64,000 nucleotides of DNA from contig NZ_JARUBP010000001.1 of assembly GCF_029626225.1 (NCBI RefSeq), positions 1,922,001 through 1,986,000 of the forward strand, read 5' to 3'. The translations under genes and the position numbers were made by a program. Below the pieces are notes generated by a model that saw nothing but the letters and a program-made list of their open reading frames with translations, had not been told where the DNA came from and made no database searches. The DNA is from Asanoa sp. WMMD1127 (lineage in GTDB: Bacteria; Actinomycetota; Actinomycetes; Mycobacteriales; Micromonosporaceae). Positions 15,672 through 28,476 of this stretch are shown here, piece after piece (within the stretch, counting starts at the first letter, position 1; each line of letters starts with the position of its first letter).

Positions 15672-16403
15672 ATGATCGGCCTTGTGCTCGCAGCCGGCGC
15701 CGGCCGGCGGTTGCGCCCCTACACCGACACGCTGCCCAAGGCCCTCGTGCCGGTCGACGGTGAGACCACCATTCTCGACATCGCGCTGCGCAACCTCGCC
15801 GCGGTCGGGCTGACCGACATCGCGGTCGTGGTGGGCTACGCGGCGGAGACCGTCGAGAAGCGCCGGCCCGATCTGGAGTCCCGCTACGGCGTCACGCTCA
15901 ACCTCGTGCACAACGACAAGGCCGAGGAGTGGAACAACGCGTACTCCCTTTGGCTTGCTCGCGACCAGTTCGCCGGCGGCGCGCTGCTGGTCAACGGCGA
16001 CACCGTGCACCCGGTCTCGGTCGAGCAGACGCTGCTGGCCAACCGCGGCCCCGGGGTGCTGCTCGCCGTCGACGACGTGAAGTCGCTGGCCGACGAGGAG
16101 ATGAAGACCACCTTCGACGCGTCCGGCCAGCTCACCCGGATCACCAAGCTGATGGACCCGGCCGAGGCCTTCGGTGAATACATCGGCGCCACGCTGATCG
16201 AGGCGTCGGCGGCCGCGGGCGTCGCCGAGGCGCTGGAGGCCACCTGGCGCCGCGACCCCAACCTCTACTACGAAGACGGCTACCAGGAGTACGCGAACCG
16301 CGGCGGCGAGGTCCGGGCGGTGACGATCGGCGACATCCCCTGGGTGGAGGTCGACAACCACGCCGACCTGGCCCGAGCCCGGGAGATCGCGTGCCACTAC
16401 TAG
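15672..16403 (+). CDS. Nucleotidyltransferase (phosphocholine/inositol-phosphate cytidylyltransferase-like)
   Basis: 243 aa from the ATG at 15672, preceded by GGAGGAAG. The N-terminal signature LAAGAGRRLRPYTDTLPKAL is that of NTP-transferase (GT-A-like) enzymes, with Lys in PKAL and a later NGDT. The C-terminal WVEVDNHADLARAREI resembles the LicC/IPCT group, which makes CDP-choline or CDP-inositol, more than glucose-1-P enzymes. First gene of a tightly overlapping trio (13-bp overlap with the dehydrogenase). I infer it makes a CDP-activated alcohol, possibly CDP-glycerol from the dehydrogenase product. The exact substrate needs testing. Confidence 0.85.
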   Translation: MIGLVLAAGAGRRLRPYTDTLPKALVPVDGETTILDIALRNLAAVGLTDIAVVVGYAAETVEKRRPDLESRYGVTLNLVHNDKAEEWNNAYSLWLARDQFAGGALLVNGDTVHPVSVEQTLLANRGPGVLLAVDDVKSLADEEMKTTFDASGQLTRITKLMDPAEAFGEYIGATLIEASAAAGVAEALEATWRRDPNLYYEDGYQEYANRGGEVRAVTIGDIPWVEVDNHADLARAREIACHY

Positions 16404-17458
16404 CCCGCACCGTCACCACGCCGCTGGCCATCGAGGTGCGCCGCGGCGCCGTCGCCGAGCTGGGCACGCTGCTGCACGACCGGCGGATCTCCGGCGGTGG
16501 CGATGTGGCCGTCGTGGTGGGTCCCGGCCAGGGCGAGCGGATCGCCGAGCTGGTGCGCCCGTCGCTGGGCAACGCGGACCTGTTCCACATCTGCGGCGGC
16601 ACGATCGACTCCGCGATGGAGCTGAGCCAGGACCTGCGCCGGCGCAACTACGACGCGGTGGTCGGCATCGGCGGTGGCAAGACCATCGACACCACGAAGT
16701 ACGCCGCGACCCGGCTGGGCATCCCGATGGTCACGGTGGCGACCAGCCTGGCCAACGACGGCGTGTGCTCGCCGGTCGCCTCGCTCGACCTCGACGGCCG
16801 GCGCGGCTCCTACGGCGTGCAGATCCCGCTGGCCATCGTGGTCGACCTCGACTTCGTCGAGAACGGCCCGGACCGGCAGACCCAGGCCGGGATCGGCGAC
16901 GCGCTGTCCAACCTCAGCGCCGTGGCCGACTGGGAGCTGGCCCACCGCGAGCGCGGCGAGGCGATCGACGGGCTGGCCGTCGCGCTGTCCCGCAGCGGCG
17001 CCGAGGCGCTGGTCAACCACCCGGGCAAGATCGGCGACGACGCGTTCCTGACCACGCTGGCCGAGGCGCTGATCATGGGTGGCATCTCGATGGCGGTGGC
17101 CGAGTCGTCCCGGCCGGCCAGCGGCGGCTGCCACGAGATCTCGCACGCGATCGACCACCTCTATCCCGGCACCGGCTCGCACGGCGAGCAGGTCGGCCTC
17201 GGCGCGCTGTTCTGCACCTATCTCCGCGGCGACCAGGAGCGGTTCGCCCAGCTCGCGGCCTGCCTGCGGCGGCACGGGCTGCCGGTGACGCCGGCCGAGC
17301 TCGGGCTGACCGACCAGCAGTTCGGGCTCGCGGTGGCCCAGGCTCCGTCGACCCGGCCCGACCGCTACACGATCCTCGAGCACCTCAAGCTGTCGCCCGC
17401 CGAGATCGACGCCCGTCTGAAGGGGTATGCCGATGCGCTCCGCGACCTTGTCGGCTGA
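16391..17458 (+). CDS. Iron/zinc-containing dehydrogenase of the glycerol-1-phosphate dehydrogenase type
   Basis: 355 aa, GTG start overlapping the upstream stop. The Rossmann-like part has GIGGGKTIDTTKYAA (about 92-106). Predicted metal ligands match the EgsA/AraM family: Asp123 in LANDGVCSP, His248/His252 in SGGCHEISHAIDH, and His264 in GSHGEQVGLG. Family members reduce dihydroxyacetone phosphate to sn-glycerol-1-phosphate with NAD(P)H, the archaeal-handed glycerol phosphate. Bacterial members are rare relative to GlpD/GpsA. Its place between a cytidylyltransferase and a CDP-alcohol phosphotransferase suggests it supplies the alcohol phosphate for a lipid or polymer head group. Other polyol-phosphate substrates remain possible. 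Confidence 0.85.
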   Translation: MPLLARTVTTPLAIEVRRGAVAELGTLLHDRRISGGGDVAVVVGPGQGERIAELVRPSLGNADLFHICGGTIDSAMELSQDLRRRNYDAVVGIGGGKTIDTTKYAATRLGIPMVTVATSLANDGVCSPVASLDLDGRRGSYGVQIPLAIVVDLDFVENGPDRQTQAGIGDALSNLSAVADWELAHRERGEAIDGLAVALSRSGAEALVNHPGKIGDDAFLTTLAEALIMGGISMAVAESSRPASGGCHEISHAIDHLYPGTGSHGEQVGLGALFCTYLRGDQERFAQLAACLRRHGLPVTPAELGLTDQQFGLAVAQAPSTRPDRYTILEHLKLSPAEIDARLKGYADALRDLVG

Positions 17459-18149
17459 GCCGGCGCCGCCGGGACCGGCCGAGTTCTACCGGGTCAACCG
17501 GGGCGGCGGGCTGTTCAGCGAGGGCCTGAGCCAGCGGGTGGGCGCGCTGTTCGCCGCGGCGGCGTACCGGACGGGTGTGTCGCCGACCCTGCTGACCGCG
17601 GGCAACCTGGTGGTCGGCCTGGCCACGTCGGCCGCGGTGGTCGCCCTGACCTCGACGAGCGCGCCGACCTGGGTAGCGGGGCTGGTCGCGCTGCTCGGCT
17701 GGCAGCTCGCCTATGCCCTCGACTGCGCCGACGGGCAGCTGGCCCGGGTGGCCGGCCGCACCAGCCCGGCCGGCGCGCGGGTCGACGTGCTGTGCGACAT
17801 CGCCGTGCAGATCTCGCTGGTGACCGCGCTGTCCGCCGTGGCGGTCGACCAGCACCCGGCCACGGCCTCCTGGGTGGTGGCGCTGTTCGCCGGCACCTGG
17901 ATGGTCAACCTGGTCACCTCGGTGATGCAGGCCGGCCCCAACGCGGGCAGCATGGTCACCTCCACCTCGCTGCCGGTGCGGCTGGTCAAGCTGGTCCGCG
18001 ACTACGGAGCCGTCATCTTCCTGGCCGGCCTGGTGCTCCTGCTTGTTCCACAATGGACCATCTGGCTGGTGGTCGCCTTCACGATCGTCAACGGCGGATT
18101 CCTGTTGGCCAGCATCGCCTTCACCGGCCGCACCGCCCTGCGCTCCTAG
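17427..18149 (+). CDS. CDP-alcohol phosphatidyltransferase family membrane enzyme
   Basis: 240 aa with about six TM helices. The catalytic motif D-x2-DG-x2-AR-x8-G-x3-D-x3-D is fully matched by DCADGQLAR (from about residue 96) followed by an eight-residue spacer, G, ARVD and LCDI. It transfers a phosphoalcohol from a CDP carrier to a membrane acceptor on the cytoplasmic face. It overlaps the dehydrogenase gene by 32 bp, so the trio is one operon. The Pro-rich N-terminus precedes TM1. It lacks the longer N-terminal helix of phosphatidylglycerophosphate synthases. The acceptor lipid is unknown. An inverted-repeat mosaic begins directly after the stop. Confidence 0.9.
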   Translation: MPMRSATLSAEPAPPGPAEFYRVNRGGGLFSEGLSQRVGALFAAAAYRTGVSPTLLTAGNLVVGLATSAAVVALTSTSAPTWVAGLVALLGWQLAYALDCADGQLARVAGRTSPAGARVDVLCDIAVQISLVTALSAVAVDQHPATASWVVALFAGTWMVNLVTSVMQAGPNAGSMVTSTSLPVRLVKLVRDYGAVIFLAGLVLLLVPQWTIWLVVAFTIVNGGFLLASIAFTGRTALRS

Positions 18150-18150
18150 C

Positions 18151-18330
18151 GAAGGAACGGCCCCTTCTTATCGGTTTCCGCATAGGAAGGGTCCCTTGTT
18201 AACAGCGCCGGCGGCAGCGGCGTTAACAGGGGACCCTTCCTATAGCGAAAGCGACAAGAAGGGGCCCTTGCTTCGTGTTAGCAACGGGCCGTTCTTATGC
18301 GGAAACCGTTAGGAACGGGCCGTTGCTTGC
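18151..18330. repeat. Mosaic of nested inverted repeats (intergenic hairpin element)
   Basis: Successive GGGCC-centred units with GTTAAC or TTAG edges. The central hairpin pairs ATAGGAAGGGTCCCTTGTT (18182-18200 and following AAC) with 18222-18243 with one mismatch. The outer arm TCGGTTTCCGCATA (18171-18184) is inverted at 18297-18310 as TATGCGGAAACCG plus a base. Further units GAACGGCCCCTTCTT, AAGAAGGGGCCCTTGC, GCAACGGGCCGTTCTT and GGAACGGGCCGTTGC follow. The right end runs into the last codons and stop of the leftward glycosyltransferase. It may double as terminator for both flanking genes. Confidence 0.85.
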
Positions 18331-19478
18331 GTTAGGCGGGCGTAGGTGTCGAGGAGCTGCTTCGTCACCACGTCCGGGTGGAAGGTCTGCTCGTAGCGCG
18401 CCCGGGCCAGCGGGGCCTTCGCGGCGGCCTCGGCTCGGGCGACCGGGAACGCGGCGGCGAGCGCGGCCGCCTCGGCGGGCACCGTCCAGCCCGCGTCACC
18501 GACCTCGTAGGGCACCCCGCCCAGCGCCGTGCCCAGCACCGGCCGGCCGGCGGCCAGCGCTTCGAGCACCACGGTCGGCAGCACGTCGTGCCAGGTCGGG
18601 GTGACCAGCACCACGGCCGCGGCGGAGAGCGCCGCGGCGACGCCCGGGCGGTCGAGGCGGCCCAGGTAGTCGACGTCGGCCCGCTCGGCCGCCACCGACT
18701 CGACCAGGGGGCGCAGGTCGCCGTCGCCGGCGATGCGCAGTGGGCCTAGGGCGCCGTCGGGATGCTGACGCCAGGCGTCGAGCAGCAGCCGGACGCCCTT
18801 CTCCTCGGAGAGCCGGCCCGAGAAGAACAGGAAGCCGTCGCCGAGGGGGGCCGCCGGGCCCGGATCCGGGATCGCGTTCGGCTTGACGGTGATCCGGTCC
18901 GCCGGGATCCCGTACGCGATCAAATGATCTTTGATGGCGTCCGTCAGGGCCAGGTAGCCGTCGACCGATCGCCACGTCGGCCGGTGCACGGTCAGCGCGG
19001 TCGCCATCACCACGCTCTGCGCCGCCGAACCCCGGTAGCACCGGTGCCGCACGGCGGGCAACGGGAGCGCGCGCCCCCGACAGTCGTGGCAGATGCCGCC
19101 GTCGCGGAAATAGAGCCCGGACGCGCACACCTGGCGGTAGTTGTGCACGGTCTGCAGCACCGGCAGGCCGAACCGGTGCGCGGTCCGCACGATCCAGGGC
19201 GAGATCAACGGGTACGGGTTGTGCAGGTGCAGCACGTCCGGCCGGTGTGTCCGGATCAGCTCGGCGAGGTCGCGCTGCGCCCGGGGCGCGTAGATCGGCG
19301 AGACCGGCAGCAGCGCCTTGGCCGCCGGCGACATGTCGGCGATCTCGTCGGAGCTGCGCAGGAACGGCAGCACCTCGACCCCCGCCGCGGCGAGCTGGTC
19401 GATCTCCTGATCGACGATCACATTCTCGCCAGAGGGCTGGGCCTCGCGATATCTGTTGTGCGCGACGACGACCTTCAT
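18309..19478 (-). CDS. GT4-family glycosyltransferase with Cys-rich insertion
   Basis: 389 aa, GT-B fold. The N-terminal domain starts MKVVVAHNRY and has PDVLHLHNPYPLISPWI. The C-terminal donor domain has FLFFSGRLSEEKGVRLLLDAW and LPTVVLEALAAGRPVLGT with the family Glu. Between them is a Cys set, Cys118, Cys130, Cys133 and Cys147 (CX11CX2CX13C), likely binding a metal and known from a subset of polysaccharide GT4 enzymes. It probably adds a sugar to an envelope glycan from an NDP donor. The last residues (TARS) and the stop codon are encoded inside the inverted-repeat mosaic, so the original C-terminus may have been altered. It has a leaderless promoter overlapping that of the divergent DNA glycosylase. 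Confidence 0.9.
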   Translation of the reverse strand: MKVVVAHNRYREAQPSGENVIVDQEIDQLAAAGVEVLPFLRSSDEIADMSPAAKALLPVSPIYAPRAQRDLAELIRTHRPDVLHLHNPYPLISPWIVRTAHRFGLPVLQTVHNYRQVCASGLYFRDGGICHDCRGRALPLPAVRHRCYRGSAAQSVVMATALTVHRPTWRSVDGYLALTDAIKDHLIAYGIPADRITVKPNAIPDPGPAAPLGDGFLFFSGRLSEEKGVRLLLDAWRQHPDGALGPLRIAGDGDLRPLVESVAAERADVDYLGRLDRPGVAAALSAAAVVLVTPTWHDVLPTVVLEALAAGRPVLGTALGGVPYEVGDAGWTVPAEAAALAAAFPVARAEAAAKAPLARARYEQTFHPDVVTKQLLDTYARLTQATARS

Positions 19479-20446: not shown

Positions 20447-20553
20447 GACCCGGTCCCGCACCGACGGCGCGGGGACGACCGCTCAGGCGGGTCCGGGCGT
20501 AATGTCTGTCTTCTGTCCACGGTTCGTAACCGTTGACGTGGGAGACTGATGCG

Positions 20554-22170
20554 GTGGGCGACCCGAGCCCGTACGGCGAGTGGGCGGCACGCGTTAGCCG
20601 GGAGGGCGTAGGTGAGGTGACGACCAGCCTCGAACGCCCGGTGACCAGCAACGGCCGCGGCGGCGTCGTGCGCCACGTCGACAGCTTCGAGATCCAGGTG
20701 CCTCCGCCGCCGCCCACCAACGGTGTGCCGCGCTCCGCCTGGGCCCGGGCGCGCCGGCGCGTCTCGCGCTGGCACCGCCCCTTCATCCTCATCCTGCTCG
20801 TCCTCGACTTCGGCGCGGTCACGCTGGCCAGCTACATCGCGGTCACCGAGTTCGAGAAGGCGCGGGCCGGCTTCCAGGACCGCCCGACGCTGTTCGCCCT
20901 CATCGCCTACGTGTTCCTGCCGTGCGGGTGGATCTTCACGCTGTGGGCCAACCGCGCCTACGACCGGCGTTACCTGGGCCTGGGCACCGACGAGTTCAAG
21001 CGCGTGGTCCGCGCCTCGCTCGTGGTCGCCGCCTTCGTCTCGTTCCTGGCCTTCGCCACCAAGACCGACCTCTCCCGTATGACGGTCGGCAGCGTGCTGC
21101 TCGGCGCCCTGCTGCTGATCCTGGTCGCCCGCTATCTGGCCCGCCAGGCGCTGCACCTGGTCCGCCGCCGCGCCGGCCAGGCCGGCCACCGGGTGATCCT
21201 GATCGGCACGCTTCCCGAGGCGCTCGAGGTCTACACCGCGGTCACCCGCAACCCCGCCGCCGGCCTGGTCCCGGTCGGCATCCACATCACCGACGGCTAC
21301 GCGGCGGCCCGCGGCATCGAGACCCCGGTCCCGGTCTACGCCGGCCGCGACGTGCTCGGCCTGGTCCGCGAGCTCGGCGCCGACACGATCGCCGTCTGCG
21401 GCTCCGCCAGCGCCGAGCCCGGCGAGCTGCGCCGCCTGGCCTGGCAGCTCGAAGGCAGCGGCGTCGACCTGGTGGTGGCGCCGCAGCTCACCGACATCGC
21501 CGGCCCGCGGGTGCACATCCGCCCCATCGAGGGCCTGCCCCTCCTCCACGTCGAAGAGCCGACGCTGTCGGGCCCGGCCCTGCTGGCCAAGAACATGATG
21601 GACCGCGTCGTCGCCGCCCTGGGCCTGATCATCCTGCTGCCCGTCTTCGCCGCCGTCGCGATCGGCATCAAGATCAGCGACAAGGGCCCGGTCTTCTTCC
21701 GCCAGCCCCGCGTCGGCCACGAGGGCCGCACCTTCCGGGTGTGGAAGTTCCGCACCATGTACGTCGACGCCGAAGACCGCCTCGCCGCCCTCGTCGACCA
21801 GAACGAGAGCGACGGCATGCTCTTCAAGATCCGCCAGGACCCGCGGGTCTTCCCCTTCGGCAGCTTCCTGCGGGCCAGCTCGATCGACGAGCTGCCCCAG
21901 CTCATCAACGTCCTCTGGGGCGAGATGTCCCTGGTCGGCCCCCGCCCCCTCCCGGCCGACGACGGCGACTTCCTGGGCGACGTCCGCCGCCGCCTCCTGG
22001 TCCGCCCCGGCATCACGGGCCTCTGGCAGGTCTCGGGCCGCTCCGACCTGAGCTGGGACGAAGCCGTCCGCCTGGACCTCTACTACGTGGACAACTGGTC
22101 ACTGGCATACGACCTGAGCATCCTCTGGCGCACGATCGGCGTAGTCCTCGCCCGCAAGGGCGCCTACTAG
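20554..22170 (+). CDS. Polyprenyl-phosphate glycosylphosphotransferase (WcaJ/WbaP-type sugar transferase)
   Basis: 538 aa from the GTG at 20554, with GGAGAC about 8 nt upstream. A TTG at 20533 is possible. It has four or five N-terminal TM helices (about 80-230), a CoA-binding-like middle domain, then the C-terminal bacterial sugar transferase domain (about 350-538): KNMMDRVVAALGLIILLP, GPVFFRQPRVGHEGRTFRVWKFRTM, SIDELPQLINVLWGEMSLVGPRP and RPGITGLWQVSGRSD. It transfers a hexose-1-phosphate from an NDP-sugar to undecaprenyl phosphate, starting a repeat unit for exopolysaccharide or glycan. The rest of that pathway is not in the window apart from one GT4 and the later LCP and epimerase genes. 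Confidence 0.93.
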   Translation: MGDPSPYGEWAARVSREGVGEVTTSLERPVTSNGRGGVVRHVDSFEIQVPPPPPTNGVPRSAWARARRRVSRWHRPFILILLVLDFGAVTLASYIAVTEFEKARAGFQDRPTLFALIAYVFLPCGWIFTLWANRAYDRRYLGLGTDEFKRVVRASLVVAAFVSFLAFATKTDLSRMTVGSVLLGALLLILVARYLARQALHLVRRRAGQAGHRVILIGTLPEALEVYTAVTRNPAAGLVPVGIHITDGYAAARGIETPVPVYAGRDVLGLVRELGADTIAVCGSASAEPGELRRLAWQLEGSGVDLVVAPQLTDIAGPRVHIRPIEGLPLLHVEEPTLSGPALLAKNMMDRVVAALGLIILLPVFAAVAIGIKISDKGPVFFRQPRVGHEGRTFRVWKFRTMYVDAEDRLAALVDQNESDGMLFKIRQDPRVFPFGSFLRASSIDELPQLINVLWGEMSLVGPRPLPADDGDFLGDVRRRLLVRPGITGLWQVSGRSDLSWDEAVRLDLYYVDNWSLAYDLSILWRTIGVVLARKGAY

Positions 22171-23437: not shown

Positions 23438-24195
23438 CCGATCGCGCCTTCCTGCGCGTCCTGGCGGTCGACGACGAGCCGCCGGCGCTGGACGAGCTCG
23501 CCTACCTGCTGCGCGCCGACCCGCGGGTAGCCAGGCTGCACACCGCGGCCGACGCCACCGAGGCCCTGCGCGTGCTCCGCGACGCCGACGTCGACGTCGT
23601 CTTCCTCGACATCCGGATGCCGGGCCTCGACGGCATGGAGCTCGCCCGGGTGCTGCGCCGCTTCGCCCGGCCACCGGCGATCGTCTTCGTCACGGCGTAC
23701 GACGACGGCGCCGTCGACGCCTTCGACCTCGGCGTCACCGACTACGTCCGCAAGCCGGTCCAGGCCGAGCGGCTGGCCGAGTCGATCCGGCGCGTGGTCA
23801 GCGGCCGCGTGGTGCCCACCCACCCGGCCGCGCTGGCCCGCGCCGAGGAGGACCCGACGATCCCGGTGGAGCTGGCCGGTACGACCCGGATGCTGCCCCG
23901 GTCGGCGGTGCGCTGGGTCGAGGCCCAGGGCGACTACGCGCGACTGCACACGGCCGACGGCTCCCATCTCGTACGCGTGCCGCTGGCCACCCTCGCCGAC
24001 CGCTGGGCCGACGCGGGCTTCGTCCGCATCCACCGCTCCTATCTGGTGCAGCTGCGCCTGATCGCCGAACTGCGCCTGGCCAACTCCGGCTATGTCGTCA
24101 TCGTCGACGGGGCCGAACTTCCCGTGTCCCGCCGGCACACCCGGGAGCTCAAGGACAAGCTCGTCCGCGCCGCGAAACAGGACTGGAACCGCTAG
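23434..24195 (+). CDS. LytTR-family response regulator
   Basis: 253 aa, ATGA overlap with the kinase. The receiver domain has Asp13-Asp14 and phospho-acceptor Asp59 (VFLDIRMPGLDG), VTAYDD, and Lys in VRKPV. The LytTR DNA-binding domain (about 148-250) shows AVRWVEAQGDYARLHTADG, FVRIHRSYLVQL and PVSRRHTRELKDKL. It binds direct repeats upstream of target promoters, and the acetate-type symporters at 32.2 and 38.8 kb are plausible targets by family precedent. No direct repeats obvious enough to call were found just upstream of those genes. Confidence 0.93.
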   Translation: MTDRAFLRVLAVDDEPPALDELAYLLRADPRVARLHTAADATEALRVLRDADVDVVFLDIRMPGLDGMELARVLRRFARPPAIVFVTAYDDGAVDAFDLGVTDYVRKPVQAERLAESIRRVVSGRVVPTHPAALARAEEDPTIPVELAGTTRMLPRSAVRWVEAQGDYARLHTADGSHLVRVPLATLADRWADAGFVRIHRSYLVQLRLIAELRLANSGYVVIVDGAELPVSRRHTRELKDKLVRAAKQDWNR

Positions 24196-24301
24196 ATCAT
24201 CTCGGTCGAACGGCCGACGACACGAGAGCGAAGTACCTCTATCCTTCGTTGGCCTGCCATGCGCGTGCGCCGTGGCGGGACCACACGGGGAGAGGAAGGC
24301 T

Positions 24302-26389
24302 TTGACAAAGCAACCGAAGCGCCGGTTGACGGCGGCTGCGCTCGCGGCTGCCCTCCTGGCGACCAGCGTCGCCGGTTGGGCGACACCCGCACAGGCCGCG
24401 GCCACCGGCGCGATCAGCGGACACGTGACCACCGCCGCCGGCGCGCCGGCCGAGGACGTCTGGGTCCAGGCCCTCGACGCGGAGACCTACGAAGGCATGG
24501 GTTTCACGACCACCGCGGCCGACGGGTCCTACCGCATCGACGCTCTGGCTGACGGCCAGTACATCGTCAGCTTCAACGGTCCCGAGCTCGCCGAGCAGTA
24601 CTTCGACGGCAAGACGCGGATCAACGAGGCCGACCCGGTCACCGTGACCGGTGGCCGGACCACGACTGTCGACGAAGACCTGATTGCCGCCGGCTACCTC
24701 ACGGGGCACATCTCCGATCCGAACGGCGAAGGGCTGGACAACAGCCTCGTGCGGATCTACCGGGCCGAGGACGAGGCCTATGTCCAGGCGGTCGGCACCA
24801 GCTACGGCGACTTCCGCGTTCCGGTGCCGCCCGGCACCTACGTGCTGAGCTTCGAGCCCGTCAAGGACCTCGACCAGGAGCAGTACGTGCCGGGCAAGCT
24901 CACCGCCGCGGCCGCGCAGCGGTTCGTCGTCACCGCCGGCGAGGACACCACGGTCATCGACACCGCGTTGCGGACCGGCACCCTGAGCGGTCGCGTCACC
25001 CGGGCCGACGGCACGCCGGCCCGCGACGTCCGTCTCGACGTCTCGCCGTTCATGGGCAACGGGGGTGGCGAGTACGCCACGACCGACAGCAACGGCGAGT
25101 TCTCCGCGCCGCCGATGCTGGCCGGCGACTACATGGTGGAGTTCAGCGTCGGCGAACGCACCGAGTACTTCGACCGGGCCGCGCGATACGAAGACGCGGA
25201 CCCGGTGACCATCACCGGTGGGAACGACAGTCGAATCACGCCGACCCTGCTGCCGACCGGAAGCGTCCGTGTGCGCGCCCTGGACGCGGTCACCGGCTCG
25301 GTCGTTCGGGACTTCTGCGCCAACAGCGAGTGCAGCGACGGCTCGGGCGAGGTGCTGCTGACCGACCTCGCCGAAGGGTCACAGGACCTCTGGATCTCCG
25401 CCCCTGAAGCGAACTACGTCGACCGCAACAGCACTGTCACCGTCCGCGTTGGTCAGACGATCGACGTCACGGTTCGACTGGTGCCGGGCGCGAAAATCAC
25501 CACGACGGTCGTCGACAAGGCGACCGGCAAGCCGCTCCAGGACGTCTGCCTGATCGCCTACAAGCCGGGCCAGTTCTTCATCCCGGACGGCATGGGCGGC
25601 AACGAGTGCAGCGACGCGGCCGGCAAGGCGACCGTCGACAAGCTGGCGACCGGCGACTACCGGCTGTTCGCCTGGCCACGCAACAGGAGCTACGGCCGGC
25701 AATGGGTGACCGCCAACGGCGGCAGTGGTGACGAGCGGCAGGCGGTCACCATCAAGGCGACGATGGGCAAGACGTCTGCGGGCCCGCAGGTCCGTGTCGA
25801 CCGTGGCGGCTCCATCCGTGGGCGGGTGACCGACGCCACGACCGGCGCGCCCATCTCTTGGACTCAGGTCGGGATTGCCTCCGGGAGAACGGGCGGCGAC
25901 ACCTCGACCGACGAAGACGGCCGCTTCCAGATCGACGGTCTTGGCCCCTACCGCTGGCCGTTGCAGTACTGGGGCGGAAGCGACCACGCCACGGCGTGGA
26001 CGGGCGGGGCCGTGAGCCGCTACACCGCGACCGGCACCCAGGTGACCGCCGGTGCCGTGGCCACGGCCGACCTCGCGCTGACCAAGGGCGTCACCGTTCA
26101 GGGCAATCTGCACACGGGCGGCCACACGCCCGACTGGGCGCGGATCACGCTGGCCAACACGGTCACCCGTGACGACGTCGGCAGCGTCGACTTCGTGGGC
26201 AACTCCTACGAAATGCACGTGCTGCCGGGCCAGGAAGTCCGGTTCGCCTACAACCTCGATATCGACGGTGTGAGTTACCGATCCGACAAGGCGCCGCTGC
26301 CCCCGGCCGCACCGGGTGGGCCGACGCGCTACGCGGTCACCGTGCCCGACGGCGGGCTGACCATCGACCTCACTATCGCCATCCCATGA
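24302..26389 (+). CDS. Secreted protein of tandem carboxypeptidase-regulatory-like beta-sandwich domains (paralogue 1)
   Basis: 695 aa from a TTG at 24302, the only sensible start before the signal peptide. A GGGGAGAGG ribosome-binding site lies 6 nt upstream. The signal peptide ends at about TPAQA. The mature part is a chain of CarboxypepD_reg/SdrD-B-like beta-sandwich repeats, seen as recurring motifs ISGHVTTAAGAPAEDVWV, GHISDPNGEGLD, LSGRVTRADGTPARDV and IRGRVTDATTGAPI, each followed by TTTADGSYRI-like strands. Two Cys pairs are present (FCANSEC; VCLIAY..NECSD). There is no LPXTG, no C-terminal TM helix and no enzyme domain, so it is a released surface or matrix protein of unknown role. 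A paralogue follows at once. Confidence 0.88.
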   Translation: MTKQPKRRLTAAALAAALLATSVAGWATPAQAAATGAISGHVTTAAGAPAEDVWVQALDAETYEGMGFTTTAADGSYRIDALADGQYIVSFNGPELAEQYFDGKTRINEADPVTVTGGRTTTVDEDLIAAGYLTGHISDPNGEGLDNSLVRIYRAEDEAYVQAVGTSYGDFRVPVPPGTYVLSFEPVKDLDQEQYVPGKLTAAAAQRFVVTAGEDTTVIDTALRTGTLSGRVTRADGTPARDVRLDVSPFMGNGGGEYATTDSNGEFSAPPMLAGDYMVEFSVGERTEYFDRAARYEDADPVTITGGNDSRITPTLLPTGSVRVRALDAVTGSVVRDFCANSECSDGSGEVLLTDLAEGSQDLWISAPEANYVDRNSTVTVRVGQTIDVTVRLVPGAKITTTVVDKATGKPLQDVCLIAYKPGQFFIPDGMGGNECSDAAGKATVDKLATGDYRLFAWPRNRSYGRQWVTANGGSGDERQAVTIKATMGKTSAGPQVRVDRGGSIRGRVTDATTGAPISWTQVGIASGRTGGDTSTDEDGRFQIDGLGPYRWPLQYWGGSDHATAWTGGAVSRYTATGTQVTAGAVATADLALTKGVTVQGNLHTGGHTPDWARITLANTVTRDDVGSVDFVGNSYEMHVLPGQEVRFAYNLDIDGVSYRSDKAPLPPAAPGGPTRYAVTVPDGGLTIDLTIAIP

Positions 26390-28476
26390 GCAGGAGCAGC
26401 ATGAGACGAGTACGCGCCACGGCCGCCTTCGCGGCGGCCGTCATGGCGGGCACGATGGCCGTGTGGGCGACGCCCGCCCAGGCGGCCGGCACCGGCGTCG
26501 TCACCGGCCGGGTCACGACCAGCACCGGCGCGCCCGCCGCCGACATCTGGGTGTCCGTCATGGACTACGAGGAGTGGGGCGAGCCGGTCGGCTACACCAC
26601 GACCGCCGCGGACGGCACCTACCGCATCGGCGGCCTCAACACCGACAGCTACGTGGTGTCGTTCTCCGGCACCGACCACCCCACGCAGTACTTCGACGGC
26701 AAGACCGACATCTTCGACGCCGACGAGGTGCGCGTCACCACCGGCCAGACCACGACGATCAACCAGCAGCTGATCGCCGTCGGATTCATCACCGGTCGCC
26801 TGCTGCTGCCGACGGGCGAACCGTTCGCATGGCACTGGGTCGACGCCACCGACGAGTACGGCACGTCCAGGGGTGGCAGCTCGACCGACGACAACGGCGA
26901 CTACCGCATCCCGGTGCCGGCAGGCAGCTACTACGTGGCGTTCTCGCCGATCGACGACAGCTACCAGCAGCAGTACGTTCCAAGGAAGCTCAGCCGGAAC
27001 GACGCCACCTTGTTCACCGTGGCGGCCGGCGCCGAGGTCCGTGCTGACGACACCGCCTTGGAGACCGGAAGCCTGAGCGGACGCCTGACCAACGACAACG
27101 GGACGCCCGTCGCCGAGGCTTCCGTGTACGGGTCGCCGTTCCAGACGGAGGATGGCGGTCTCTACGGGGAAACCGACGCCAACGGAGAGTTCTCGTTCCC
27201 ACAGGTGCTGGTCGGCACCTACCAGGTGTCCTTCCAGGCCGGTTACCGCTACCAGTACTTCGACGGCGCGCTCCGGCCGGAGGACGCGGACCCGGTGACA
27301 GTCTCGGCCGGCGACGACACCCGAGTGACCGAGAGCATGCTGCCCACCGGCACCGTCCGCGTTCGGGCCCTCGACGCGATCACCGGCTCCGTGATCCGTG
27401 ACTTCTGCGCCGGCGACTTCTGCAGCGACGGCACCGGCGAGGTGCTGATGACCGACCAGGTCGCGGGAAATGTGCAGTTCAGCATCTGGGCCGACGGCAA
27501 CTACCTGGGTCGCGACAGCAACGTCACGGTCCGGGCGGGCCAAACCGTCGACGTCATCGCCCGGCTGCTGCCAGGCGCGAAGATCACCACCACGGTCGTC
27601 GACAGGGCGACCGGCAAGCCGCTGGCAAACGTCTGCGTGACGGCCTACAAGCCGGCCCGGGCCTACGTGCTGGACGGCTTCGGTGACAACTGCACCGATT
27701 CGGCCGGCAAGGTGACGCTGACCAGGCTCGAGGCGGGCGACTACCGGCTGTTCGCCGAGCCTCGCGACAAGGCTTACGGGCGGCAGTGGGTCGCGGCCAC
27801 CGGCGGCACTGGCGACGAGCGGCAGGCCACCACGATCCGGACCACGGCCGGTAAGACCTCGGGCGCTCCGCAGATCCGCATCGACCGCGCCGGTTCGATC
27901 CGGGGCCGGGTGACCGACGCCGCGACCGGAGCTCCACTCCACGCGGCTGTCAACATCTTCACTCAGAACCCAGGGCTCGGCGCCGAAGAGCCGTGGACGG
28001 ACGAGGACGGCCGCTTCCAGGTCGACGGCCTCGGCCCCTACCGCTGGCCGCTGAAGTTCGCCAGCTACGGCTACCCGATCACCTGGACCGGCGGCGCCAT
28101 CAGCCGGTACGCCGCCACGGGCACCCAGGTGACCGCGGGCGGTGTGGCCACCGCCGACCTCGGTCTGACCAAGGGGGTCACGGTGAGCGGCAACCTGGTC
28201 TCCGCCCACGGCGGTCCCAGCGGATACACCCGGATCAGCGTGCTGAACACCCAGACGGGCGACTACGTCAGCACCGACGACTTCGAGGGCACGGCCTACG
28301 AGGTGCGGGCGTTGCCCGGCCAGGAGATCCGCTACGTCTACTACACCGAGATCGACGGTGAGTACTACAGCTCCGACAAGGCGAAGCTGTCCCCGGCCAC
28401 CCCCGGCGGCCCGCCGCGCTACTCGGTGACCGTCCCGACGGGCGGTCTGACCGGCATCGACGTGCTGGTCGACTGA
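26386..28476 (+). CDS. Secreted protein of tandem carboxypeptidase-regulatory-like beta-sandwich domains (paralogue 2)
   Basis: 696 aa, starting with ATGA overlap of the upstream stop. An ATG at 26401 with AGGAG 4 nt before it is an alternative start that leaves the signal peptide intact (ending TPAQA). Same domain order and nearly the same length as its neighbour, with long identical or near-identical motifs (TTTAADG.YRI, QYFDGKT, GPYRWPL, ATGTQVTAGGVATADLGLTKGVTV). This is a tandem gene duplication. The Cys pairs are conserved (FCAGDFC; VCVTAYK). No anchor or catalytic motif. A strong terminator follows, so the two genes form a bicistronic unit. Confidence 0.88.
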   Translation: MSRSSMRRVRATAAFAAAVMAGTMAVWATPAQAAGTGVVTGRVTTSTGAPAADIWVSVMDYEEWGEPVGYTTTAADGTYRIGGLNTDSYVVSFSGTDHPTQYFDGKTDIFDADEVRVTTGQTTTINQQLIAVGFITGRLLLPTGEPFAWHWVDATDEYGTSRGGSSTDDNGDYRIPVPAGSYYVAFSPIDDSYQQQYVPRKLSRNDATLFTVAAGAEVRADDTALETGSLSGRLTNDNGTPVAEASVYGSPFQTEDGGLYGETDANGEFSFPQVLVGTYQVSFQAGYRYQYFDGALRPEDADPVTVSAGDDTRVTESMLPTGTVRVRALDAITGSVIRDFCAGDFCSDGTGEVLMTDQVAGNVQFSIWADGNYLGRDSNVTVRAGQTVDVIARLLPGAKITTTVVDRATGKPLANVCVTAYKPARAYVLDGFGDNCTDSAGKVTLTRLEAGDYRLFAEPRDKAYGRQWVAATGGTGDERQATTIRTTAGKTSGAPQIRIDRAGSIRGRVTDAATGAPLHAAVNIFTQNPGLGAEEPWTDEDGRFQVDGLGPYRWPLKFASYGYPITWTGGAISRYAATGTQVTAGGVATADLGLTKGVTVSGNLVSAHGGPSGYTRISVLNTQTGDYVSTDDFEGTAYEVRALPGQEIRYVYYTEIDGEYYSSDKAKLSPATPGGPPRYSVTVPTGGLTGIDVLVD

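Follow-up and report, generated by a model that had tools for sequence, protein, structure and literature searches.

A near-inseparable cytidylyltransferase and glycerol-1-phosphate dehydrogenase-family gene pair in Actinomycetes, proposed to supply CDP-glycerol for a teichoic-acid-like polymer

The 8-Mb genome of Asanoa sp. WMMD1127 carries three overlapping genes for a nucleotidyltransferase, a dehydrogenase and a membrane phosphotransferase, which we call CYT, DH and CAP. They lie in a stretch of 64,000 nucleotides (C1:1922001-1986000, the window below), at these positions:

15672-16403, + strand: CYT, LicC/IPCT/PntC-type nucleotidyltransferase, ATG start, NTP_transferase domain
16391-17458, + strand: DH, glycerol-1-phosphate dehydrogenase (G1PDH) family, GTG start, Fe-ADH_2 domain (PF13685)
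17427-18149, + strand: CAP, membrane cytidine diphosphate (CDP)-alcohol phosphotransferase, ATG start, CDP-OH_P_transf domain (PF01066)

An initial annotation, made from the letters of the window, had described three overlapping same-strand genes of these families, and this description holds: the open reading frames overlap by 13 nt (CYT/DH) and 32 nt (DH/CAP), and the products score above the Pfam cut-offs at 46, 110 and 35 bits, respectively. The step order that it proposed, from reduction of dihydroxyacetone phosphate (DHAP) through CDP activation to CDP-alcohol transfer, is borne out by the enzyme families. We place the CYT start at ATG 15672 and not at an upstream GTG because the methionine there is invariant across 22 aligned rows, the window and 21 homologues. 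The nearest named relatives are Micromonosporaceae, with the CYT of Asanoa siamensis 93% identical to that of the window.

DH was annotated as a member of the family that makes glycerol phosphate of archaeal handedness, and our comparisons agree. The NCBIfam model for G1PDH (NF002022) gives 251 bits, below its equivalog cut-off, against 73 bits for glycerol dehydrogenase. Among solved structures, the DH sequence matches M. jannaschii G1PDH at 160 bits, B. subtilis AraM at 83 bits and glycerol dehydrogenases at 62 bits or less, with the exception of clostridial 3ce9, which is labelled glycerol dehydrogenase and ranks first. When the predicted structure of DH (pLDDT 90) is ranked by Foldseek E-value, the G1PDH entries 4rgq, 4rfl, 4rgv, 5fb3 and 9h4x stand above all glycerol dehydrogenases except 3ce9; by TM-score alone, AraM (0.76) does not stand out from the glycerol dehydrogenases, which reach 0.79. 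The metal ligands first noted, Asp123, His248 and His264, are present and are kept in all 75 aligned DH sequences, window included, an alignment from which one distant row (L114, 30% identity, Asn at position 123) was excluded. DH also shares with both M. jannaschii G1PDH and AraM 20 identities within residues 85-188 and, further on, S240, R241, P242, S244, G245, H248 and H252; D123 and H248 are the metal ligands among these common residues. From the family and the metal site, we infer that DH would reduce DHAP to sn-glycerol-1-phosphate.

CYT has the NTP-transferase fold and a GxGxRxxP...PK signature; sugar-1-phosphate enzymes have both too, so these features do not decide its substrate. The best PDB sequence matches are LicC (1jyk, CTP:phosphocholine) and Thermotoga IPCT (4jd0, an inositol-1-phosphate CTP transferase). 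The AlphaFold model of CYT (pLDDT 93) finds LicC at the lowest E-value, and PntC (0.83) and IPCT (0.82) have the highest TM-scores among the matches listed. LicC, PntC and IPCT are all CTP:phospho-alcohol enzymes, with the sugar enzymes MurU and RmlA close behind by fold. The best NCBIfam matches of CYT all fall below cut-off, as does the inositol-phosphate CTP enzyme at 45 bits, and TIGR01518, the TagD family (HxGH, RTxGISTT), is not among the matches listed, the best 25 of 26. We propose that CYT is a CTP:sn-glycerol-1-phosphate cytidylyltransferase.

CAP, as annotated, matches the full motif DxxDGxxARx8GxxxDxxxD. The named models nearest to it are those for DIPP synthase, archaetidylinositol phosphate synthase and phosphatidylinositol (PI) phosphate synthase, none of which it matches above cut-off; among solved structures, a choline/ethanolamine phosphotransferase comes closest (E 1e-4).

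We surveyed 296 genomes of the class, counting DH, CYT, TagD, PF04464 and DUF5941 per genome, and analysed gene order in two sets of loci: 76 DH loci from the 73 DH-bearing genomes, and 80 named loci, of which 14 lie outside Micromonosporaceae. DH was found in 73 of the 296 genomes, CYT in 72 and both in 71; the genomes without both are G113 (a distant DH, 30% match, dropped from the 72-genome co-occurrence counts below), G084 (its CYT is truncated by the start of a contig) and G097 (CYT without DH, close to the end of a contig). In 73 of the 76 loci CYT immediately precedes DH, among them one (L058) where only the last 42 CYT residues are on the contig. The three non-contiguous loci are L114 from G113, L087, whose contig carries CYT about 10 kb away from DH, and L074, which is a second copy of DH. 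All 80 named loci contain CYT-DH. Because 73 of 76 homologous loci share the arrangement, the contiguity is not due to chance, and CYT-DH is a real, near-inseparable unit. Second DH copies occur in three genomes of the Streptomyces-like family (27 genomes with DH, recognised through gene order), flanked by an RNase E homologue on one side and L21/Obg on the other (L074, L083 and L092). CYT lies alongside in L083 and L092, and TagF-like genes fall within the 20-kb stretch of L074 and L092, with families at these stretches confirmed by Pfam in L083 only. In PMC13274773, which like the other papers cited here is drawn on in excerpt, ribosomal L21 and L27 are the anchors for Streptomyces wall-teichoic-acid loci.

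The third gene varies by lineage. Across the 76 loci, a different CDP-OH_P gene, CAP4, was found downstream of DH in 55 and window-type CAP in 3, and a motif search found no CDP-OH_P motif 0.9-2.6 kb downstream of DH in the remaining 18. In the 80 named loci, window-type CAP directly follows DH in 65 and lies about 250 nt beyond it in one more (L127), and another CDP-OH_P gene is present in 14. In our tree, window-type CAP forms its own Micromonosporaceae clade (9 rows, support 100/99); this clade, the downstream CAP4 and the DUF5941-fused CAP5 fall in separate groups, with no supported order among them. The last aspartate of the motif is replaced in every CAP4 found (31 His, 24 Ala), and such His/Ala proteins after DH (L042, L062, L105 and others) may be partner subunits or may use another base. 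With three CDP-OH_P clades and a lineage-dependent third gene, we reject a single conserved trio in its strict form. The initial annotation had looked to a survey of gene order in related genomes, naming conservation of the trio as support and its absence as a unit as refutation; the survey upholds CYT-DH, which is not refuted, and confines the trio to a limited set of loci.

In other families, export genes often accompany the pair. In S. fungicidicus (L115) the order is DUF5941 protein, CYT, DH, CDP-OH_P, glycosyltransferase, ATP-binding cassette (ABC) permease and ABC ATPase; there CYT is annotated as phosphocholine cytidylyltransferase family and DH as iron-containing alcohol dehydrogenase family. 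Next to this group are the hopanoid genes hpnC, hpnD, hpnE and shc. Eight of the 14 named loci outside Micromonosporaceae, from Nocardiopsis, Streptomonospora and Glycomyces, have TagG-TagH followed by DUF5941-CYT-DH-CAP4-GT2, an arrangement absent at the Actinomadura and Actinoallomurus loci among these 14. Rough clustering of neighbours across the 76 loci, in which the reading-frame picks merge overlapping frames, gives an ATPase in 53, a permease in 39, both in 38 and a GT2 in 59. The ATPase of a Streptomyces-like locus (L091) has the teichoic-acid exporter TagH as its best model, at 187 bits (cut-off 320). At nine loci (L070, L186, L187, L191-L194, L196 and L198; families assigned in L070 alone), TagG has IspD and a GDPD-family phosphodiesterase beside it, and the phosphodiesterase could serve in polymer trimming.

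The window genome has a comparable run 0.62 Mb from CYT-DH-CAP:

C1 ~1306976-1314258 (L119 4477-11759), - strand: TagG, TagH, DUF5941/CDP-OH_P fusion, GT2-TagF fusion and GT2

The polymer side of the pathway is probably encoded here. A TagH search of the genome at E<=1e-20 returned one match, at C1:1312688 (137 bits, below the equivalog cut-off of 320), and an ABC2 permease and an ABC ATPase adjoin the TagF-like gene. The GT2-TagF protein matches PF04464 at 387 bits, the only PF04464 match in the genome at E<=1e-5, and scores 198 bits with the TarF model (equivalog cut-off 550) and 70 bits with TarL. The DUF5941 fusion keeps a complete CDP-OH_P motif. Elsewhere in Micromonosporaceae, TagG lies 1.8 kb after CAP in Micromonospora foliorum (L142), whose TagH is truncated where the contig stops, and CYT and the DUF5941 fusion are 3.2 kb apart in G352.

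Co-occurrence across genomes links the same components. Among 91 Micromonosporaceae, 47 have both CYT and the fusion, 13 CYT only, 4 the fusion only and 27 neither (p=1.6e-9). In the whole survey, DUF5941 occurs in 62 of 72 DH genomes vs 17 of 224 others, and strong PF04464 matches (E<=1e-60) in 66 of 72 vs 38 of 224. At the general threshold (E<=1e-5), PF04464 is present in 69 of the 72 DH genomes and absent from G098, G160 and G243. TagD is the usual CDP-glycerol maker. At 100 bits or more, a threshold of our own (the TIGR01518 cut-off is 165.4 bits), it occurs in 22 of 296 genomes, 17 of which belong to one family, and in none together with DH. The 104 genomes with strong PF04464 comprise 66 with DH, 12 with TagD at that threshold, none with both and 26 with neither (p=1.6e-6).

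We propose, with a probability of roughly 0.55, that CYT-DH is a dedicated supply of CDP-glycerol of archaeal handedness that substitutes for TagD in making an exported teichoic-acid-like polymer. DH would provide the sn-glycerol-1-phosphate, and CYT, judging by its fold relatives and the operon, would join it to CTP to give CDP-1-glycerol. A lipid-linked acceptor may then receive the glycerol-1-phosphate through CAP, the DUF5941 fusion or both, which would prime or anchor the polymer. Co-occurrence, and adjacency in several lineages, suggest that the TagF-like enzyme would extend or decorate the polymer from the same CDP-1-glycerol donor and that the TagG/TagH-like proteins would export it; in the window genome, this set would be divided between the two loci. 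The CDP-polyol supplied is most likely CDP-glycerol of archaeal handedness, with substrates and chirality judged from protein families. If the pair makes CDP-glycerol, it would therefore be an unrelated substitute for TagD. There is a precedent for the donor: the TagF-like polymerase Cps7D uses CDP-1-glycerol in vitro, which is not shown for Cps3D (PMC8262930). The initial annotation had expected a bacterial lipid or polymer head group; an exported teichoic-acid-like polymer fits the context of TagGH, DUF5941/CDP-OH_P and TagF-like genes better than a lipid head group does.

Several observations weigh against this proposal. The co-occurrence statistics ignore shared ancestry, and 26 of the 104 genomes with strong PF04464 have neither DH nor TagD at 100 bits. 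Just 3 of the 296 genomes reach the cut-off of the TagD model, weak TagD matches occur in 108 of 296, and a TagD-like relative scoring 58-70 bits is found in 11 of the 72 DH genomes. The window genome has a related gene:

C1:4007563-4007955 (L200): cytidylyltransferase-like protein of about 131 aa with HCGH and RTAAVSTT, TagD model 70.7 bits (cut-off 165.4)

It is possible that this protein is a divergent TagD. Physical linkage is also limited: of 66 Micromonosporaceae loci, L142 alone has export genes close to the trio (some flanks are short), and the 20-kb stretch contains TagF-like genes at 5 of 76 loci and at none of 83 others from named records. The best NCBIfam matches of CYT are the sugar-1-phosphate enzymes AglF (65 bits), RmlA (53 bits) and MurU (50 bits), and sugar enzymes also rank high by fold, so CYT may act on a sugar phosphate. 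For DH, the 251 bits against NF002022 compare with an equivalog cut-off of 413; because this cut-off is missed, we name DH a member of the G1PDH family and do not assign it as an equivalog. One haloarchaeal enzyme with a G1PDH annotation in fact reduces glycolaldehyde (PMC9700705); DH scores only 55 bits against the model of that enzyme. The wall teichoic acid of S. griseus is mainly poly(ribitol phosphate), with glycerol phosphate confined to termini and branches, and its locus has TagF and TarIJ (PMC13274773). PF04464 co-occurrence is thus no proof of a glycerol polymer, since TagF there accompanies a mainly ribitol-based one, and CYT-DH might provide glycerol for the linkage or the chain ends only, or else CDP-ribitol itself.

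The last of these would make CYT-DH an analogue of TarIJ, turning another ketose phosphate, such as ribulose 5-phosphate, into CDP-ribitol or another CDP-polyol for a ribitol-type teichoic acid. The S. griseus polymer points this way, as do the ribitol-5-phosphate-based polymer of S. antibioticus (PMC13274773), the match of the window TagF-like protein to the ribitol polymerase model TarL and the different substrate of at least one annotated G1PDH homologue (PMC9700705). We nevertheless hold it unlikely: the G1PDH score of DH is far above those of the other listed models, the residues common to G1PDH and AraM are kept, S. griseus has a separate TarIJ (PMC13274773), and the window TagF domain is nearer the glycerol-phosphate enzyme TarF (198 vs 70 bits). 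Equally improbable in our estimation is a lipid head group, in which CAP would pass the CDP-activated alcohol to a membrane lipid such as diacylglycerol, or would make a phosphatidylinositol-phosphate-like lipid. The nearest models and the solved relative of CAP agree with such a role, and no TagG/TagH match is present in the available flanks of 65 of 66 Micromonosporaceae loci. Against it stand the ATPase and permease genes near the pair in other lineages (53 and 39 of 76 loci in the rough count, with TagG and TagH together at 8 of the 14 named loci) and, within Micromonosporaceae, the co-occurrence of CYT with a DUF5941 fusion that is TagGH-linked in the window genome.

In the glycerophosphoinositol pathway of Archaeoglobus and Aquifex, a CDP-OH_P transferase acts next after the cytidylyltransferase. 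A soluble glycerophosphodiester of this kind would follow a similar step logic here, CDP-1-glycerol is tied to archaeal glycerophosphoinositol (PMC8262930), and CAP, like the DUF5941 fusion, shows similarity to DIPP and inositol-phosphate synthases. A cytosolic solute would, however, need no export ABC transporter or glycosyltransferase, and we rate this role as somewhat less probable still. Archaeal-type ether lipids, as proposed for G1PDH-bearing bacteria, are strongly disfavoured, with only a very slight chance of being right. Coleman et al. (2019) name Streptomyces among the bacteria with species having all three archaeal lipid genes, and read its G1PDH as a possible archaeal-like lipid route (PMC6431249). 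The initial annotation had reported no archaeal-lipid prenyltransferase, and this extends to whole genomes: PcrB/GGGPS has no match in the window genome or in any of the 73 DH genomes, the latter in a search that returned matches in 7 of 14 control genomes, B. subtilis and archaea among these. We therefore reject an archaeal-lipid role for the trio, and the GGGPS result stands against the suggestion made for Streptomyces (PMC6431249). An ordinary glycerol-3-phosphate dehydrogenase domain was found in all 72 DH genomes searched.

CYT-DH as a CDP-glycerol supply can be set beside known systems. As in the TagD/TagF/TagGH system of B. subtilis, the window genome has a TagF-like transferase and a TagG/TagH-like exporter, and the proposed donor is CDP-glycerol; unlike that system, CDP-glycerol would arise through an NTP-transferase-fold CYT and a G1PDH, with opposite handedness, and extra CDP-OH_P enzymes and DUF5941 are present. 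S. aureus TarI is IspD-like and TarJ is a medium-chain dehydrogenase. They too are a cytidylyltransferase and reductase pair feeding a polyol-phosphate polymer, whereas CYT and DH come from unrelated protein families. DH has the bacterial G1PDH fold of B. subtilis AraM, with the SRPASG--H and GD...DW residues in common; unlike the AraM/PcrB case, PcrB was not found in the DH genomes. The glycerophosphoinositol of Archaeoglobus and Aquifex is a soluble solute whose synthesis is not known to involve TagGH or TagF. That pathway shares the glycerol-phosphate cytidylyltransferase step, and its archaeal enzyme preferring glycerol-1-phosphate had not yet been identified according to PMC8262930. A Streptomyces syntenic region has the same genes: araM, tagG, tagH, a CDP-alcohol phosphatidyltransferase, a GT2 and a sugar-phosphate nucleotidyltransferase. 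The excerpts of PMC13118837 note this grouping but put forward no pathway or stereochemistry for it. Our search of open-licence papers found no pathway assignment for the CYT-DH pair.

Beyond CAP, the window contains two further genes that the initial annotation had mentioned, separated by a DNA glycosylase gene:

18309-19478, - strand: GT4 glycosyltransferase
20533-22170, + strand: sugar transferase

Both are real. In Micromonosporaceae, 55 window-type loci extend 7.5 kb or more downstream, and both genes accompany the trio in 49 of these; none of the 14 named loci from other families showed them. Seen only in Micromonosporaceae and missing in 6 of the 55 loci there, they are rejected as specific pathway partners. 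Further along, at 24092-28476, lie two tandem genes for similar large proteins (765 and 696 aa) that by eye appear secreted, with repeated carboxypeptidase-regulatory-like segments.

A broader statement, on which we would stake somewhat less than even odds, is that many Actinomycetes make CDP-1-glycerol through CYT and G1PDH instead of TagD and build wall or lipid-anchored teichoic-acid-like polymers of sn-glycerol-1-phosphate, so that G1PDH in these bacteria is a cell-wall gene and not a relic of archaeal lipids. CDP-1-glycerol was judged likely absent from bacteria in a 2021 paper, as excerpted (PMC8262930). If the proposal is true, the polymer would be the mirror image of the wall teichoic acid of Bacillus. 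It makes it possible to ask what handedness the glycerol phosphate of actinobacterial teichoic acids has and how CDP-glycerol is supplied where TagD is missing. It also points to a function for DUF5941, and the names phosphocholine cytidylyltransferase and iron-containing alcohol dehydrogenase in databases would need correction. Bacterial G1PDH genes figure in arguments about the lipid divide and the last universal common ancestor; given a cell-wall role without GGGPS, the archaeal-lipid inference for the DH group would fall.

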